From: Halogranum rubrum
GTDB lineage: Archaea; Halobacteriota; Halobacteria; Halobacteriales; Haloferacaceae
DNA length: 64,000 nt
NCBI RefSeq assembly: GCF_900114455.1
Contig: NZ_FOTC01000007.1
Span: 62,001-126,000, forward strand
Direction of reading: 5' to 3'
The translations under genes were made by a program, and so were the position numbers. Positions within the stretch are counted from its first letter, which is position 1; each line of letters begins with the position of its first letter. The notes under the pieces were generated by a model. That model was given only the letters and a program-made list of their open reading frames with translations. It was not told the DNA's origin and searched no databases. Shown here in pieces: positions 50,715-58,135 of this stretch.

Positions 50715-50788
50715 GGGCCGGTAGCTCAGTTAGGCAGAGCGTCTGACTCTTAATCAGACGGTCGCGTGTTCAAATCGCGCCCGGCCCG
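50715..50788 (+). tRNA. tRNA-Lys (anticodon CUU), integration target
   Basis: 74-nt tRNA. The acceptor stem GGGCCGG/CCGGCCC is perfect with discriminator G at 50788. The anticodon stem TCTGA/TCAGA encloses CTCTTAA, giving CUU. The T-loop is TTCAAAT. Its 3' half provides the left attachment site of the integrated element and remains intact. No intron. Confidence 0.95.
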
Positions 50789-50791
50789 CTT
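50773..50791 (+). repeat. attL, 19-bp direct repeat in tRNA-Lys 3' end
   Basis: AATCGCGCCCGGCCCGCTT, identical to 58097-58115. It spans the T-arm/acceptor 3' strand and three bases past the tRNA. Looser similarity continues outward (TCGGAAC at about 50796 and 58119). This is the usual footprint of a tyrosine recombinase acting at a tRNA 3' end. Confidence 0.92.
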
Positions 50792-51415
50792 CCTTTCGGA
50801 ACACTTTGCATTGACGAGACAGCTCTGTGTCTCGTATATACTCGTCGTCAACACCGCGAGCGATTCTGTTTTGTAGCGAAACGCGAGTCACCGCTATCGT
50901 GCCTTTGCGTATGATTTAATGCGCCGTGCTAGCATAGGCTTTGCCCACATCTACAACGCAAACAAGTTCCCGAGATATATCGAAAGCTAGCCACATACGA
51001 GAAAACAGTGTGCTGGTAGAACTTTATCCACCGAATATTAGAGTAGGAATACCAGGAAGCGTCTATCTCGAGACTTTGCTATTCAATCCGTTAATTATCT
51101 CTATCCAACATTTATAGCCCGGTTTGGAGATAATCGACAGACAGCGTCGCCTCGCCGTACCGTTTATCATATTAGCACCACACGTTACTCGTATGTGACT
51201 GATAATCGAGAAATCGGCGTGTGGTCGTCTTCTCTGGACAAGGAACGACCACGCGACGATTTTTCACTTTAACCTAAATTGGTCGCAAAGCACTTCGACC
51301 AACACAGAGCGCAGAAACGCCCTGCGGGTGAACGTTCAATCGCCGAGTCATTGAATGTTCGCCTGTATGCGTTCACCTCCTCTGTGTCCCTAGCGATAGT
51401 CCAAACTCTAGATAA
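50792..51415. other. AT-rich non-coding left end of the element
   Basis: No gene. A perfect 8-bp hairpin lies at 50814-50821/50828-50835 soon after the tRNA. An 11-bp inverted repeat with one mismatch (GAACGTTCAAT at 51330-51340 and ATTGAATGTTC at 51350-51360) lies within outer arms GGTGAACG (51328-51335) and CGTTCACC (about 51370-51377), just before the first gene. It could be an operator or a replication-protein site. Confidence 0.55.
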
Positions 51416-51721
51416 ATGAACACAAACGCAAACAAGAACGTCGAACAGTTCGATGGACGTGACCTCCTCGCAACGTGGGAGGTCATCCCCCTGAAGCAAC
51501 GCGTAAAGCAAACGACTGGCGCGAGACAAGACACGCACGGGTTAATCTACGAGGCGGATATCGAAGCGGTCGCATCAACCATCGCACGCGAGGACGGGTG
51601 TACGAAGGATGAGGCGTATCACGCTCTCCGAGAGTTCGGATACGCGTTCGCCCTACGACCGTGCGATGATGGACATCTGCGTATCGAGGGCAAGGAGGTT
51701 ATTCTTCATGTCCTCCGATGA
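51416..51721 (+). CDS. element-encoded hypothetical protein
   Basis: A 101-residue protein of unknown family. It is soluble, with no Cys-based metal site, and contains a predicted helix-rich core (DIEAVASTIAREDGCTKDEAYHALREFGYAF). Its last 14 bases overlap the ATPase gene, so the two form one operon. The inverted repeat upstream at 51328-51378 sits close to its start, consistent with an autoregulated promoter. A small DNA-binding or partner protein for the ATPase is only a guess. Confidence 0.6.
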   Translation: MNTNANKNVEQFDGRDLLATWEVIPLKQRVKQTTGARQDTHGLIYEADIEAVASTIAREDGCTKDEAYHALREFGYAFALRPCDDGHLRIEGKEVILHVLR

Positions 51722-52979
51722 CGGCTCAAGTGGGAACTGGCTCGACCAAATAGAACCCGCAGGCACATCGTCGAACTCGAACGGCGATGAGAATAGCATT
51801 GATGAGAGCGCGCCAACCTCGGTTGAAGACGTAGAGGAGCGAGTCATTGAGCACTTTGACGCCCAAGCATGGAACGTCATCGAGGTTATCCTCTCGGCTC
51901 ACGCGACTCACCTCATCAAGGGGACGAGCAGTTGCTTCGGTCTCGTCGTCGAAGGACCGTCAGGAGCAGGGAAAACAACGTGTCTGAGGCCGTTCATTGG
52001 GCTCGACAGTCAGTTTTACCGTAGTGACGATTTTACCCCTGCCTCACTCGTAAGTCAGGATTCGTCGCGCACCGACGAAGAGCTCGAAGAACAGGACCTC
52101 CTCCCACGTATTCGCTACAAGACCGTGCTGAACCCGGACATGGCCAACTGGTTCGCCGGTGACTGGGCCGAGCGCAGTAAGAAGATGCAGGTCCTCGTCC
52201 GCGTCATGGACGGTGAGGGCTACGTCCGTGATGCTGGAACACATGGACGTCGCGGTTACGAGGGCGACTACCCGTTCAATTTCATCGGTGCGACAACGCC
52301 TCTTGACCGACAGGCGTGGAAACTGATGGGACACACGGGTAACCGATTCCTGTTCCACGAGATGACCTCGACTGATGACGAAGAAGCAGATATCGAGGCA
52401 GTCTTCGGTGCGCACGAATACGAACAGAAAGTACAGGAGGTCCGTGAGGTCGTCCATGCATTGCTCAAAGAGCTATGGGAGACATACGGTGGAGTCAATA
52501 GTGCCGATTGCTCTAACCAACCGACGCGAATCCTGCAGGAGCATATCGGCTACTTGGCCAACCTCATTCGCCATGCTCGTGCGCCGATTCATGACGATGG
52601 AACGGCGGGGTTTGAGGACCGGAAACGAGTGATGGGGTTGCTCCACAACTTGGCGCGTGGTCACGCGCTCATCAATGGTCGACAGGTTCTCCAAAAGAAC
52701 GACCTGCAGGTCTGTGCTCGTGTCGCGCTGAGTACGATGCCACGAGAACGACGCCCGCTTGTTCGAGCACTCTTACGCTCGAACGGGTCGCTGCGAACGC
52801 GGGACGTAGAGACCCTCCTGAACATCAGCAAGCCAACAGCAGTGAAGCGGATAGAACTCATGAACACGCTTCAAATCGGCAACTGCTCTGAGGATACTGT
52901 GAAAGGAGGGAAATCGAAGCGGATTACACGGAACCCAGATCTCGACTGGCCATCGGACATCTCCATGCCCGACTTCTAA
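51708..52979 (+). CDS. element-encoded P-loop ATPase with C-terminal winged helix
   Basis: A 423-residue protein. Walker A EGPSGAGKTT is at residues 82-91. FIGATTPL near 190 resembles a sensor-1 strand, and GNRFLFHEM follows with a candidate arginine finger. A winged helix closes the protein (LRTRDVETLLNISKPTAVKRIEL, about 365-387). The start at 51708 is supported by GGAGG about 14 nt upstream. This layout of ATPase plus wHTH is found in replication-initiator or partition proteins; similarity to Orc1/Cdc6 is not close enough to name it. Confidence 0.7.
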   Translation: MSSDDGSSGNWLDQIEPAGTSSNSNGDENSIDESAPTSVEDVEERVIEHFDAQAWNVIEVILSAHATHLIKGTSSCFGLVVEGPSGAGKTTCLRPFIGLDSQFYRSDDFTPASLVSQDSSRTDEELEEQDLLPRIRYKTVLNPDMANWFAGDWAERSKKMQVLVRVMDGEGYVRDAGTHGRRGYEGDYPFNFIGATTPLDRQAWKLMGHTGNRFLFHEMTSTDDEEADIEAVFGAHEYEQKVQEVREVVHALLKELWETYGGVNSADCSNQPTRILQEHIGYLANLIRHARAPIHDDGTAGFEDRKRVMGLLHNLARGHALINGRQVLQKNDLQVCARVALSTMPRERRPLVRALLRSNGSLRTRDVETLLNISKPTAVKRIELMNTLQIGNCSEDTVKGGKSKRITRNPDLDWPSDISMPDF

Positions 52980-54164: not shown

Positions 54165-54956
54165 TCAACCCTGGTACGGGGTCTGTCGGGTTTCGCAGTT
54201 GGACACTTGACATCGAGAACAATTCGGAGCTTTCGCACAAACAGGAGCAAGCCCGATTTCATCAAGTCCAGCACCATGAAGCCAAATCACGCGGTCGATG
54301 AGACTGAGCGATTCGCCCGTCACGTCCGACATCTCCTCTAGCACTTTGTCGATACCCTTGATGTCTTCTTCATTCTCAATGAGACCGATTCGGTGCACAA
54401 TGCGCTTCACGTGGACGTCACGCTTGATGACGGAGGCATAACCGATTTCCTTGAGAAACTCACGGGTCGTTTCGGGGCCGAGGAATTTGAACTTGGACTT
54501 CACATCGGTTATCGCGGGAGCCGGTTCGTCGAAGGTGTCTAGGTACGACGCGAATGACCCGTAGTCATCAACAACTGCGCTGAACGTCGCGGCGTTCGCG
54601 GACATCCCTCGTATTTTCCCCTCGTGCCTAATGAGCGAGGAATCGTCGAGGAAGCGTTGAATGTCGTCTTCGCTGTAATGAGCGGCGTGTTCGTAGTCGC
54701 CAAATACTTCGCGTAGTCGTGGCGCAAAGGCGAGGTACTTTGACCAACTGAATCCCGAGGAGAACACACTCGCAATCATGTGTTCGAAGATCTGCTCGTC
54801 GGTAAGGTCGTGATAGTCCTGATTGCGCAGGGCATCGAGGTGGTCGTGCAACCCGTCTGTGTTGTCGGCTTCTGTTTCGAGTGTCCCCACGAGGTCTGTG
54901 TATAGCTCTCGGAGTTTGTCGCCATTTGTGCCGTCGTGAATGTTATTCCATCCCAT
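54165..54956 (-). CDS. HhH-GPD DNA glycosylase with C-terminal Fe-S loop
   Basis: A 263-residue protein. The early part resembles 3-methyladenine DNA glycosylase (FSWSKYLAFAPRLREVF at about 69-85, SSLIRHEGKIRG at about 106-117). The helix-hairpin-helix lies at about 157-171 (FKFLGPETTREFLKEIG), and the catalytic Asp is Asp180 in KRDVHVKRIVHRIG. Cys240, Cys246, Cys249 and Cys254 form a compact loop like the Fe-S cluster of endonuclease III/MutY. It likely removes a damaged or modified base. On a mobile element it may target modified foreign DNA or protect the element. Confidence 0.8.
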   Translation of the reverse strand: MGWNNIHDGTNGDKLRELYTDLVGTLETEADNTDGLHDHLDALRNQDYHDLTDEQIFEHMIASVFSSGFSWSKYLAFAPRLREVFGDYEHAAHYSEDDIQRFLDDSSLIRHEGKIRGMSANAATFSAVVDDYGSFASYLDTFDEPAPAITDVKSKFKFLGPETTREFLKEIGYASVIKRDVHVKRIVHRIGLIENEEDIKGIDKVLEEMSDVTGESLSLIDRVIWLHGAGLDEIGLAPVCAKAPNCSRCQVSNCETRQTPYQG

Positions 54957-55169: not shown

Positions 55170-55949
55170 TCAGTCTTCTTGTTCGTCGCTTAGCAATATA
55201 TCCCAGTTCTGGTCCACGTCAACCATCCATCGAAACGCGTTCAATGCGGCTTCACCATCTCGAGAGATACTGATAACCTTGTTTCGACCTTGTTTCGTTA
55301 CATCCACCCATCCTCTCTCCATTAATGGTTCAAGAATATCGGTGTCCAATAGACGGTATTTCCCTTTTCCAGCAACGTTTCGACGAATGTAGGGAAGACC
55401 AGCGCGCTCACTGAAATGAATGATGTCACCCTTTGTTGGAGGTTCCTCAACGGTTTCTTGATTTAGATACCGATGTATGTACTCCATGACAGTGACTTGC
55501 TCTGATGCTGGTGCATCAATCGGATAACTCGGGAGCTCAGCGACCTCTCCAATGCCCGATGGTCGTTCTTTGTATGTTTCCGCTTTACCGTAGTAGGCTG
55601 TTGAGCCCATTACCATCGACGCAATCATACCAGCGATGGCGGTTACTTTGCTCCCGGCTGAAACATTCACGTAGACATCATCGTCTTCGTGCTCAAATAT
55701 CAATTCTGCAATCTTCCCGAGTGATTCATACAGGTTGAAAATGTCGCATCGATGGATCTCATAGTCTATGTTTCGTTGTGAGAGACCTTCTTCAACTAGT
55801 TCTAAACACTCGTCTGCTTCAGGGTCGTTTTCGGTATGTGTGACGACCTCAACTTTGTCTGCTCGAAAATTCTCTGCTGGAAGGACAATACGCTCTACCT
55901 CATATCCCATCGGCATGATGTGAATCCGTTCACGAACACTCAATCCCAT
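55170..55949 (-). CDS. CARF-like sensor with wHTH (HFX_2341/DUF6293-type regulator)
   Basis: A 259-residue protein. The N-terminal Rossmann-like domain (about 5-125) has VYVNVSAGSKVTAIAGMIAS at about 92-111, the CARF-type phosphate-binding loop seen in Csa3-like and DUF6293 regulators. A winged helix fills about 165-250. CARF domains bind cyclic nucleotides in CRISPR signalling, but no CRISPR array, cas gene or nucleotide cyclase lies in this window. Its promoter overlaps a GTACTA array that could be its operator. It may sense a nucleotide and regulate the element. Confidence 0.8.
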   Translation of the reverse strand: MGLSVRERIHIMPMGYEVERIVLPAENFRADKVEVVTHTENDPEADECLELVEEGLSQRNIDYEIHRCDIFNLYESLGKIAELIFEHEDDDVYVNVSAGSKVTAIAGMIASMVMGSTAYYGKAETYKERPSGIGEVAELPSYPIDAPASEQVTVMEYIHRYLNQETVEEPPTKGDIIHFSERAGLPYIRRNVAGKGKYRLLDTDILEPLMERGWVDVTKQGRNKVISISRDGEAALNAFRWMVDVDQNWDILLSDEQED

Positions 55950-55965
55950 ACGTTGGGACTCATTC

Positions 55966-56021
55966 CCATAGTACTAAAGTTCTGTGACTATCGTACTAGT
56001 TCGGCTTTGACCGTACTATGG
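55966..56021. promoter_or_regulatory. GTACTA operator-like array upstream of the CARF-like gene
   Basis: GTACTA occurs at 55971-55976, 55993-55998 and 56013-56018, spaced 22 and 20 bp apart, about two helical turns. The outer copies form an inverted repeat, CCATAGTAC (55966-55974) with GTACTATGG (56013-56021). The first overlaps the likely minus-strand TATA region, fitting autoregulation. Confidence 0.6.
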
Positions 56022-56091
56022 AACTATAGATAGTATGGTGGTTGGGGAAAACCCTTAAGTGAGAAGGTGCGTTATTGTCAGTTAGATATAC

Positions 56092-56268
56092 GTCGGACTT
56101 CCCGACCTAATCGATGGTAAACACGTAGGAAAACTCGACCCGCGCACTCCTGGCAGGGAAACTCGCGGGTCGATGGGATAGCCACATTGATACCCGGCAC
56201 AGTTGCCGAGGGATTCAGGCCCCTCGTTGGGTAGGTATCAAGGGCTTAGCCGAACGTTTGGTGGCCCT
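56092..56268 (+). ncRNA. candidate structured RNA in the element
   Basis: Dense perfect stems in a gene-free region. P0: 56092-56096/56102-56106. P1: 9 bp, 56136-56144/56164-56172. P2: 8 bp, 56187-56194/56234-56241, enclosing P2a 56195-56199/56204-56208 and P2b 56209-56212/56221-56224, a three-way-junction shape. P3: 56242-56245/56264-56267 with an inner CCGAAC/GTTTGG pairing (one G-U). TATA-like TTAGATATAC at about 56083 would start transcription near 56110. Orientation is inferred from this box; no known RNA family was recognised. Confidence 0.55.
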
Positions 56269-56300
56269 AGTAATATACATTACCCTTCTTTCAAGGTGAC

Positions 56301-56906
56301 GTGTCACTGAGACATTTGAGCTCCACATCAAACTCATCTAACCCCGGCAACGGGATGACGAACTGGGAGGACCTCTCCCGCTCGCGCAAGCGAGTTGCAA
56401 AGACTATCAGCCACGTTCACGGCCCATCGACGTTTGAACGCCCCGAACTCCGCAAGGACGTGAAGGCGTCAACGACGGTAGAGGATTCTATCGACGACAA
56501 ATATAGCGTCCTTACTTCGTTGAAGTACACAACTCTCCTGAACGGACTCGTCGAAGACGGGTATCTCGTCAAGGAGTATCAGGGCGGTAAGAACCCTATC
56601 ATCCTCGACCTCGAGTATGATAAGGACCGTGACAACACGAACGCGGCCCCGTACGGCAATGCAAGCAAACTTCACTCGGTCGTAGACCAAGTTCTGGACC
56701 GAGAAGGCATGGGCCGAGGTGCTCTCGGCAATGTCAACTCGAATGACTTCAACGGCGTTCGGGACGCGGTGAACCGTACGCTAGGCCGAACGGTTCTCGT
56801 TACTGTCTCAGAAGCGAGTGAATACCGCTTCACACCGAGCGGATACAGTCTCGCAGACGAAATGGCGAGAGACTTCGAGCCGGAAGAAGACGAAGACGCT
56901 TCGTAG
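56301..56906 (+). CDS. element-encoded HTH-like protein
   Basis: A 201-residue protein, or 183 residues from ATG 56355. GTG 56301 is preferred because TAATATAC lies about 25 nt upstream (56271-56278), predicting a leaderless transcript. A probable winged helix spans about 65-100 (SVLTSLKYTTLLNGLVEDGYLVKEY), and a second helical domain follows (about 120-170). The C-terminus is acidic. A role as element regulator or excision-control protein is possible. Codon use is less GC-rich than the flanks. Confidence 0.65.
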   Translation: MSLRHLSSTSNSSNPGNGMTNWEDLSRSRKRVAKTISHVHGPSTFERPELRKDVKASTTVEDSIDDKYSVLTSLKYTTLLNGLVEDGYLVKEYQGGKNPIILDLEYDKDRDNTNAAPYGNASKLHSVVDQVLDREGMGRGALGNVNSNDFNGVRDAVNRTLGRTVLVTVSEASEYRFTPSGYSLADEMARDFEPEEDEDAS

Positions 56907-56952: not shown

Positions 56953-57966
56953 TTAGATGTTTCCGAGATAGCCACGTCGTTGCTCTAGCTTCTGTTCCTC
57001 GCTACGCCGGTCGTAGTGTGCATCAAGCACTTTCTGCCCGACGTTCATGCGGTCGCTAACGACTTTCTCAGGCACGTCACTCGAAAGATGATGCGTGATA
57101 CTCCCACGCCGAATCGCGTGTGGGCTGATACTCGATGGACATCCATGTGCCTGTCCGTAACTCGTTGCCTCACAGTCGTCGATTGAACGCCCGTGCGGGC
57201 ATTCTCCGGTATAGTAGCAAGGTGAAGTGACGTGGTAGACGTACGCTCTCATCGTGTTCTTATGCAATCGTCCTCGCTTGCTCGCAAACAATGGGTTTCG
57301 GTCATAGTCATCGGTCACGTTTGGACGGATGGTATCGAGCCAGTCATCTACGACACGACAGACACGTTCGTTGAGTGCGACGAATCGTTCGCCTTGCTTG
57401 CCGTTCTTCAGCCGTGTCTCGGTCTCTGGCCGATGTCTGAGTTTGAGACAAGCTTTGCGTGGGTAGTAGTCGTCAACGTCGAGACTGTGTGCGCTCCCTG
57501 TTCGTATGCCTGTGTGCCAGAGGATCTCCAGAAGGGTGTGACGACAGGAGGCGTATTCGAATTTGTGGAGATATTCGAGTACGTCTTCGGCTGTGTCGGC
57601 TTCGAGCATCACGTCACGCTGGTTTTCGCCGTGTTTCAGAGTGGGCGAGATAACCTTGTCATGCAGGTTGTCTTCGACAGCGTTGATGCCCTCGCAGAAT
57701 CGTATGAACACGCGGAGCGTGTCGAGCTGCGTTTTCAACGTGACGTTGTTCAGGTCGCCGTCGTCACGCCGCCATAGTCGGTAACGATGCACCGAACGCC
57801 CGTTGATGTCGTTGAGGTTGTCGATGTCGTACTCGTTGCACCAGCGTATGAAGTGGTTGAGTCGGTAGTTGTGCGCTTTGTACGTTGCTTCTGTGACCTC
57901 GTCTTGTCGTGAGGCGAGGTACATTTCTTTCGCGTCGGCAGGTGTTATTGGTTCGAGTTCGCTCAT
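56953..57966 (-). CDS. tyrosine recombinase/integrase
   Basis: Integrase of 337 residues; the start at 57966 (MSELEP) was chosen because the upstream frame has no haloarchaeal features. Catalytic residues are Arg155 (HTGIRTG), His283 and Arg286 (SPHAIRRG) and Tyr318 (DAHYDRR). A SAM-like N-terminal core-binding domain covers about 8-100. Four cysteines (250, 256, 265, 276) form a probable zinc site before the HxxR box, a hallmark of haloarchaeal integrases. It lies next to attR and almost certainly catalysed the tRNA-Lys integration. Confidence 0.92.
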   Translation of the reverse strand: MSELEPITPADAKEMYLASRQDEVTEATYKAHNYRLNHFIRWCNEYDIDNLNDINGRSVHRYRLWRRDDGDLNNVTLKTQLDTLRVFIRFCEGINAVEDNLHDKVISPTLKHGENQRDVMLEADTAEDVLEYLHKFEYASCRHTLLEILWHTGIRTGSAHSLDVDDYYPRKACLKLRHRPETETRLKNGKQGERFVALNERVCRVVDDWLDTIRPNVTDDYDRNPLFASKRGRLHKNTMRAYVYHVTSPCYYTGECPHGRSIDDCEATSYGQAHGCPSSISPHAIRRGSITHHLSSDVPEKVVSDRMNVGQKVLDAHYDRRSEEQKLEQRRGYLGNI

Positions 57967-58096: not shown

Positions 58097-58115
58097 AATC
58101 GCGCCCGGCCCGCTT
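58097..58115 (+). repeat. attR, 19-bp direct repeat
   Basis: Exact copy of 50773-50791. Chromosomal sequence that originally followed tRNA-Lys continues from 58116, including a hairpin and a tRNA 3'-end mimic module. Confidence 0.92.
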
Positions 58116-58135
58116 CTCTCGGAACTACCTCGACA

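Follow-up and report, generated by a model that had tools for sequence, protein, structure and literature searches.

To our knowledge, very few natural structured cis-regulatory RNAs have been established in archaea, and no RNA component of prokaryotic multiubiquitin operons is known to us. According to a description from 2021, the fluoride switch was at that time the only experimentally determined natural archaeal riboswitch (PMC8241225). Since 72% of the protein-coding transcripts of Haloferax volcanii are leaderless (PMC4983044), a leader of the size discussed here would be unusual. Regarding CARF regulators, HFX_2341 (crr) represses transcription and has an effect on cas genes as well, and it is a chromosomal gene whose inheritance is mainly vertical (PMC11434293).

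We analyzed a stretch of 64,000 nucleotides from Halogranum rubrum (the window), in which the original prediction had placed an unrecognised, highly structured RNA at 56092–56268. A conserved structured RNA was indeed found, but that interval was too short, as it omits the 3′ strand of the closing helix: the RNA reaches ~56303, and the conserved region of ~225 nt extends from ~56087 to the downstream start codon (TTG, 56316). The features of the locus are as follows.

50773–50792, + strand: attL, AATCGCGCCCGGCCCGCTTC, with its start inside the 3′ end of tRNA-Lys (50715–50789)
55170–55949, − strand: divergent CARF-wHTH regulator gene of the HFX_2341/DUF6293 type (PADLOC CARF3)
55968–56037, strand not assigned: operator-like repeats CGTACTAT/ATAGTACG (copies at 55968, 55992, 56012 and 56030), in the region separating the CARF gene from the TATA box
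56054–56060, + strand: TATA box CTTAAGT, ~27–30 nt upstream of the point at which the conserved RNA begins
56087–56315, + strand: structured RNA, putative leader
56316–56906, + strand: downstream gene for a predicted winged-helix protein of 196 aa, TTG start set by homologue alignment
56953–57966, − strand: tyrosine integrase gene (PF00589, PF02899)
58097–58116, + strand: attR, second copy of the 20-bp direct repeat

The 20-bp repeat at tRNA-Lys, the integrase and the GC content, which is 46–56% across most of this region and ~63% outside, indicate that the RNA lies within an integrated element of ~7.3 kb, as had been proposed. None of the six element genes was TnpB or IscB in Pfam and NCBIfam scans, and no cas effector was found among the scanned neighbours. 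The element gene at 51609–52979 is AAA-type ATPase-like without a Pfam match, and its product resembles by eye that of a gene encoding 407 aa in L089, a related element (GPSGAGK...SQFYRSD). A gene for a helix-hairpin-helix DNA glycosylase (Adenine_glyco/OGG-like, 54165–54956) adjoins the CARF gene.

The predicted fold of 56092–56268 was −71.3 kcal/mol for the + strand and −65.5 kcal/mol for the − strand (z = −2.5 and −1.7 versus shuffles, respectively). Four 8-mer Watson-Crick stem matches occurred within its 177 nt, a number reached by 1 of 1000 shuffles (shuffled mean 0.19). Because stem richness and fold stability alone are suggestive only, homologues were required. No match to the window interval was found in Rfam 15 up to E = 5 (RNase P, SRP, tmRNA, OMEGA/HEARO, group I/II introns, ribozymes and riboswitches included), and ARAGORN detected no tRNA in 56092–56268, in agreement with the earlier statement that the interval bears no marks of RNase P, SRP RNA or a tRNA. 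The same Rfam search on six homologous loci returned tRNAs only, up to E = 2.

By protein search, 12 close homologues of the downstream protein were obtained among 394 Halobacteria genomes, and family searches added two more. RNA relatives lie upstream of the homologous genes in 14 further haloarchaeal genomes, giving 15 close loci including the window; the carriers include Haloferax gibbonsii, Natrialba aegyptia, Halonotius aquaticus and Halorubrum sp., and further copies are on plasmids of Halobaculum and Natrarchaeobaculum. A DNA-level search of 171 genomes of the host family detected no other copy, and no relative of the downstream gene was found in viral contigs and phage records. In the upstream DNA of the homologues, ~225 nt could be aligned, preceded by a TATA-like box, and little aligned further 5′. 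The TATA-like box of the original prediction thus holds, a similar one standing before the RNA at the 13 loci inspected.

A covariance model built from five relatives with the window left out (R1) recovered the window RNA at 56087–56309 with 82.2 bits (E = 3.9e-19), and relatives that had been held out scored 159 bits (L071) and 27 bits (L069). Across the 394 Halobacteria genomes, R1 matches were confined to those carrying the downstream gene, with additional weak minus-strand matches produced by the palindrome of the long stem H2. The fold shared by the relatives consists of a hairpin (H1), a long stem (H2) and a three-way junction, in which a long-range helix (H3) encloses a hairpin (H4) and a helix (H5) capped by a terminal hairpin (H6), together with a probable pseudoknot. 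In the window, these elements are all on the + strand.

56092–56106, + strand: H1, hairpin GTCGG/CCGAC, covarying, 95–100% of cells paired
56135–56173, + strand: H2, long stem TCGACCCGCG/CGCGGGTCGA, both sides changed in 10 of 10 pairs on A11
56198–56303, + strand: H3, long-range closing helix (56198–56207 with 56295–56303), both sides changed in 10 of 10 pairs, ending 12 nt before TTG
56208–56225, + strand: H4, hairpin GAGGG/CCCTC; in relatives, its loop is paired with the stretch corresponding to 56192–56196 (probable pseudoknot)
56226–56292, + strand: H5, helix (56229–56238 with 56275–56285) bearing the conserved motif TA--TT-CC
56241–56268, + strand: H6, terminal hairpin AGGGC/GCCCT, 79% of cells paired

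In an alignment of 12 sequences, 87.0% of cells were paired, compared to 72.2% in shuffled and 35–48% in slid controls, and both sides had changed in 35 of 51 pairs. For 14 more diverse sequences (mean pairwise identity 49%), the values were 87.1%, 65.8% and 37–45%, respectively, with both-side changes in 45 of 51 pairs; as the sequences had been aligned by fitting to the model, these absolute percentages lean towards structure, while both controls are exceeded by a very wide margin. The shape of the RNA is kept in relatives more than its sequence, and conservation within the junction sequence is moderate, below that of most riboswitch aptamers. The + strand is favoured since G-U cells exceeded A-C cells (55 versus 27). 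The check by homologues and covariation that had been suggested therefore strongly supports an unrecognised, highly structured RNA.

Not all details of the predicted fold survived this comparison. Of the stems seen in the window, those at 56092–56106, 56135–56173, 56208–56225 and 56241–56268 were kept, whereas the 8-bp stem of 56187–56194 with 56234–56241, which the window copy is able to form as an alternative, was paired in 54% of cells in relatives and was rejected as a conserved part. Likewise, the imperfect direct repeat of 10 nt (GGAAAACTCG at 56128 and GGGAAACTCG at 56156) is present in the window but was not observed in the aligned relatives. Regarding the pseudoknot, a CCCC segment 5′ of H3 is able to pair with the GGGG loop of H4. 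No covariation beyond shuffles was detected for this pairing in the 12 close sequences; when distant members were added, one pair shifted from C-G to U-A and G-C, and 4 of 500 shuffles matched the covariation score. Because this support appears only once distant members join, we regard the pseudoknot as probably real in the family and weak in the window copy. We also observed that the inner part of H2 (20–26 nt) in L007 and L008 is the exact reverse complement of that in the otherwise similar L004, L009 and L071, which looks like an inversion of the hairpin tip, for which template switching may be responsible.

The downstream protein, which we predict to be a winged-helix protein, had no match in Pfam, NCBIfam, PHROG, PADLOC or PDB, its AlphaFold model was of low confidence (pLDDT 54), and searching for similar folds with this model was uninformative. 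Homologues share a common start context (ATGAGY.../TTGAGY...), so the probable start of the window gene is the TTG at 56316. With this start, the distance from the end of H3 to the start codon was 4–12 nt at all 14 aligned loci, which comprise three unrelated types of downstream gene (one of them, at L084, tentative). For loci sharing the downstream gene, the start codon falls within the modelled region, so an independent test of the spacing comes only from the unrelated genes. The constant spacing, maintained also at these, is the main argument for reading the RNA as a cis-acting leader. The RNA shares with riboswitches a conserved aptamer-like fold in a putative 5′ leader, the leader position here being suggested by the TATA box and the start codon.

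The unrelated genes were found with a second covariance model (12 sequences), which matched relatives of the RNA before them. L081 (G377:C5:14343-14568; 42 bits, E = 7e-10) lies directly 5′ of a ubiquitin-like operon, and L082 (G318:C22:13153-13386; 26.5 bits) has the same gene order. By Pfam this operon encodes Multi_ubiq and Prok-E2_E, and the sequence beyond resembles a JAB-E1 fusion. At L084 (23.9 bits), the RNA candidate precedes a gene for a 120-aa predicted winged-helix protein. Matches of this model to L083, L091 and L094 (14–26 bits) overlap coding DNA and were rejected as false; these overlaps aside, each RNA that was found is followed by a start codon. Since false matches reach these scores, L084 is tentative and rests on context, and L082 rests on synteny with L081.

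In both L081 and L082, the operon is divergent from a winged-helix gene and a gene for a ~467-aa protein for which Pfam gave no convincing match. A transglycosylase-like identity considered for the 400–470-aa proteins near some relatives found no support and was rejected.

A distant group of four (L066, L067, L076 and L077) has downstream proteins of ~30% identity, and a long stem together with a closing helix is again present 5′ of the start codon. The covariance model does not match these four, so that kinship of their RNA is not claimed. Their four genomes share a cassette (L035–L038) consisting of a Panacea protein, proteins of ~137 and ~430 aa, a divergently encoded protein of ~221 aa, the putative structured leader, a winged-helix-like gene and a cysteine-rich, zinc-ribbon-like protein. 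No known defence match was obtained among the scanned cassette members, and the ~221-aa and Panacea proteins recur beside L084.

The divergent neighbour of the RNA in the window is a CARF-like gene as described in the original prediction, with the domains HFX_2341_N at 122 bits (curated cut-off 30) and DUF6293_C at 84.9 bits (curated cut-off 27). On the other hand, the suggested co-occurrence with the RNA did not hold, since a CARF gene lies divergently beside the RNA at 4 of the 15 close loci (the window, L024, L029 and L088), while a ~215-aa protein takes its position at eight (L022, L023, L025–L028, L031 and L089) and other genes at three. CARF was therefore rejected as an obligate partner; what stays constant beside the RNA is the gene that directly follows it. 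The CGTACTAT/ATAGTACG repeats occurred 4, 2, 3 and 1 times at the four CARF-type loci with at most one mismatch (the single copy at L069); at the 11 other loci, nine had none and a near-identical pair had one each. The CARF protein may thus bind these sites. At several of the ~215-aa-protein loci, the intergenic region contains sequences resembling TCTCGGAG, a candidate operator for that protein.

From the conservation, the fold, the preference for the + strand, the position of the promoter and the constant spacing to the start codon, we consider it on balance probable that this is a new family of structured RNAs of ~225 nt that acts in cis as the 5′ leader of the following gene, possibly as a riboswitch, and that is transcribed from the TATA promoter on the + strand. 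Transcription from this promoter would make the RNA the 5′ leader of the gene for the predicted winged-helix regulator. When H3 is formed, the sequence directly 5′ of the start codon would be held in a three-way junction stabilised by the pseudoknot, which would hinder translation initiation, until the fold changes in response to a ligand, a protein or a signal related to infection. The position of the closing helix, right beside the start codon, makes control at translation initiation the most likely mode. The divergent regulator, CARF in this case, probably controls the same promoter through the CGTACTAT sites, so that the downstream gene would be under two layers of control. That the leader is a riboswitch-like haloarchaeal sensor of an infection or stress signal, which switches on mobile-element regulators and, in relatives, a ubiquitin-like operon in parallel with CARF control, is a speculative extension that we consider rather unlikely. 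The idea that the RNA belongs to an undescribed regulatory or defence system stands in part: the RNA reads like a leader and a tie to CARF is limited to 4 of 15 loci, but the relatives before a ubiquitin-like operon keep a link to defence open.

The main rival is a trans-acting non-coding RNA, such as a regulatory or defence RNA, that would work as a ribonucleoprotein together with the winged-helix protein encoded downstream or with other proteins of the element. It owes this rank to an AT-rich segment ~40 nt 5′ of the start codon, in the 3′ part of the RNA, which may be a second promoter and would then allow the RNA to be a separate transcript. The large and stable fold, the invariable co-travel of RNA and downstream gene in the close group, and the proximity of relatives to the ubiquitin-like operon and to CARF regulators are also compatible with a free RNA. 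However, a constant 4–12 nt to the start codon, even at unrelated genes, would be unexpected for such an RNA, and every copy other than the coding-DNA overlaps judged false precedes a start codon. We therefore regard trans action as rather unlikely.

Two further possibilities are less probable still. As ribosomal proteins do, the downstream protein might bind its own leader, and a predicted winged-helix protein accompanies the RNA at 15 loci; yet the family also precedes the multiubiquitin gene (L081 and L082) and possibly that of the 120-aa protein at L084, which are unrelated to the downstream protein, making autoregulation improbable. Alternatively, the element might act as DNA, in the form of a cruciform or a replication or recombination site, with an incidental RNA fold. 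The opposite orientations of the inner part of H2 among close relatives, unpredicted if only RNA mattered, would suit this idea, but the excess of G-U over A-C cells by two to one, helices nested over 100 nt that covary with G-U intermediates, and a TATA box and start codon at constant flanking distances make it very improbable.

If the cis-acting leader is confirmed, tRNA-integrated elements, plasmids and a ubiquitin-like operon would have in common a strongly covarying leader family of ~225 nt that constitutes a new RNA class, and control at the RNA level would be linked to CARF regulators and candidate defence genes. This is directly testable, as some cultured species carry relatives (Haloferax gibbonsii ATCC 33959, Natrialba aegyptia and Halobaculum magnesiiphilum).

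Compared with type III toxin-antitoxin systems (ToxIN-like), in which a structured RNA likewise lies directly 5′ of a protein gene on mobile DNA, the present RNA is one non-repetitive fold without tandem repeats, apart from the 10-nt imperfect repeat in the window copy, and the downstream predicted winged-helix protein matches no toxin family, with no ToxN/CptN endoribonuclease detected by Pfam, NCBIfam or PADLOC. The divergent neighbour in the window is a member of the family of HFX_2341 (crr) and Csa3-like CARF regulators, but the RNA is no part of that family, in view of the few loci with a CARF neighbour. Relatives of the RNA lie directly before multiubiquitin operons (Multi_ubiq, Prok-E2_E and JAB-E1), whereas the window element carries no such genes. 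The resemblance to translational riboswitches and structured 5′ leaders, such as the fluoride riboswitch of Thermococcus kodakarensis, lies in a junction fold with a probable pseudoknot between promoter and start codon and in a last helix beside the initiation site. In contrast to these, the present RNA has no Rfam match, was seen here only in haloarchaea, largely in mobile elements and plasmids, and precedes regulator and ubiquitin-like genes instead of metabolic or transport genes.
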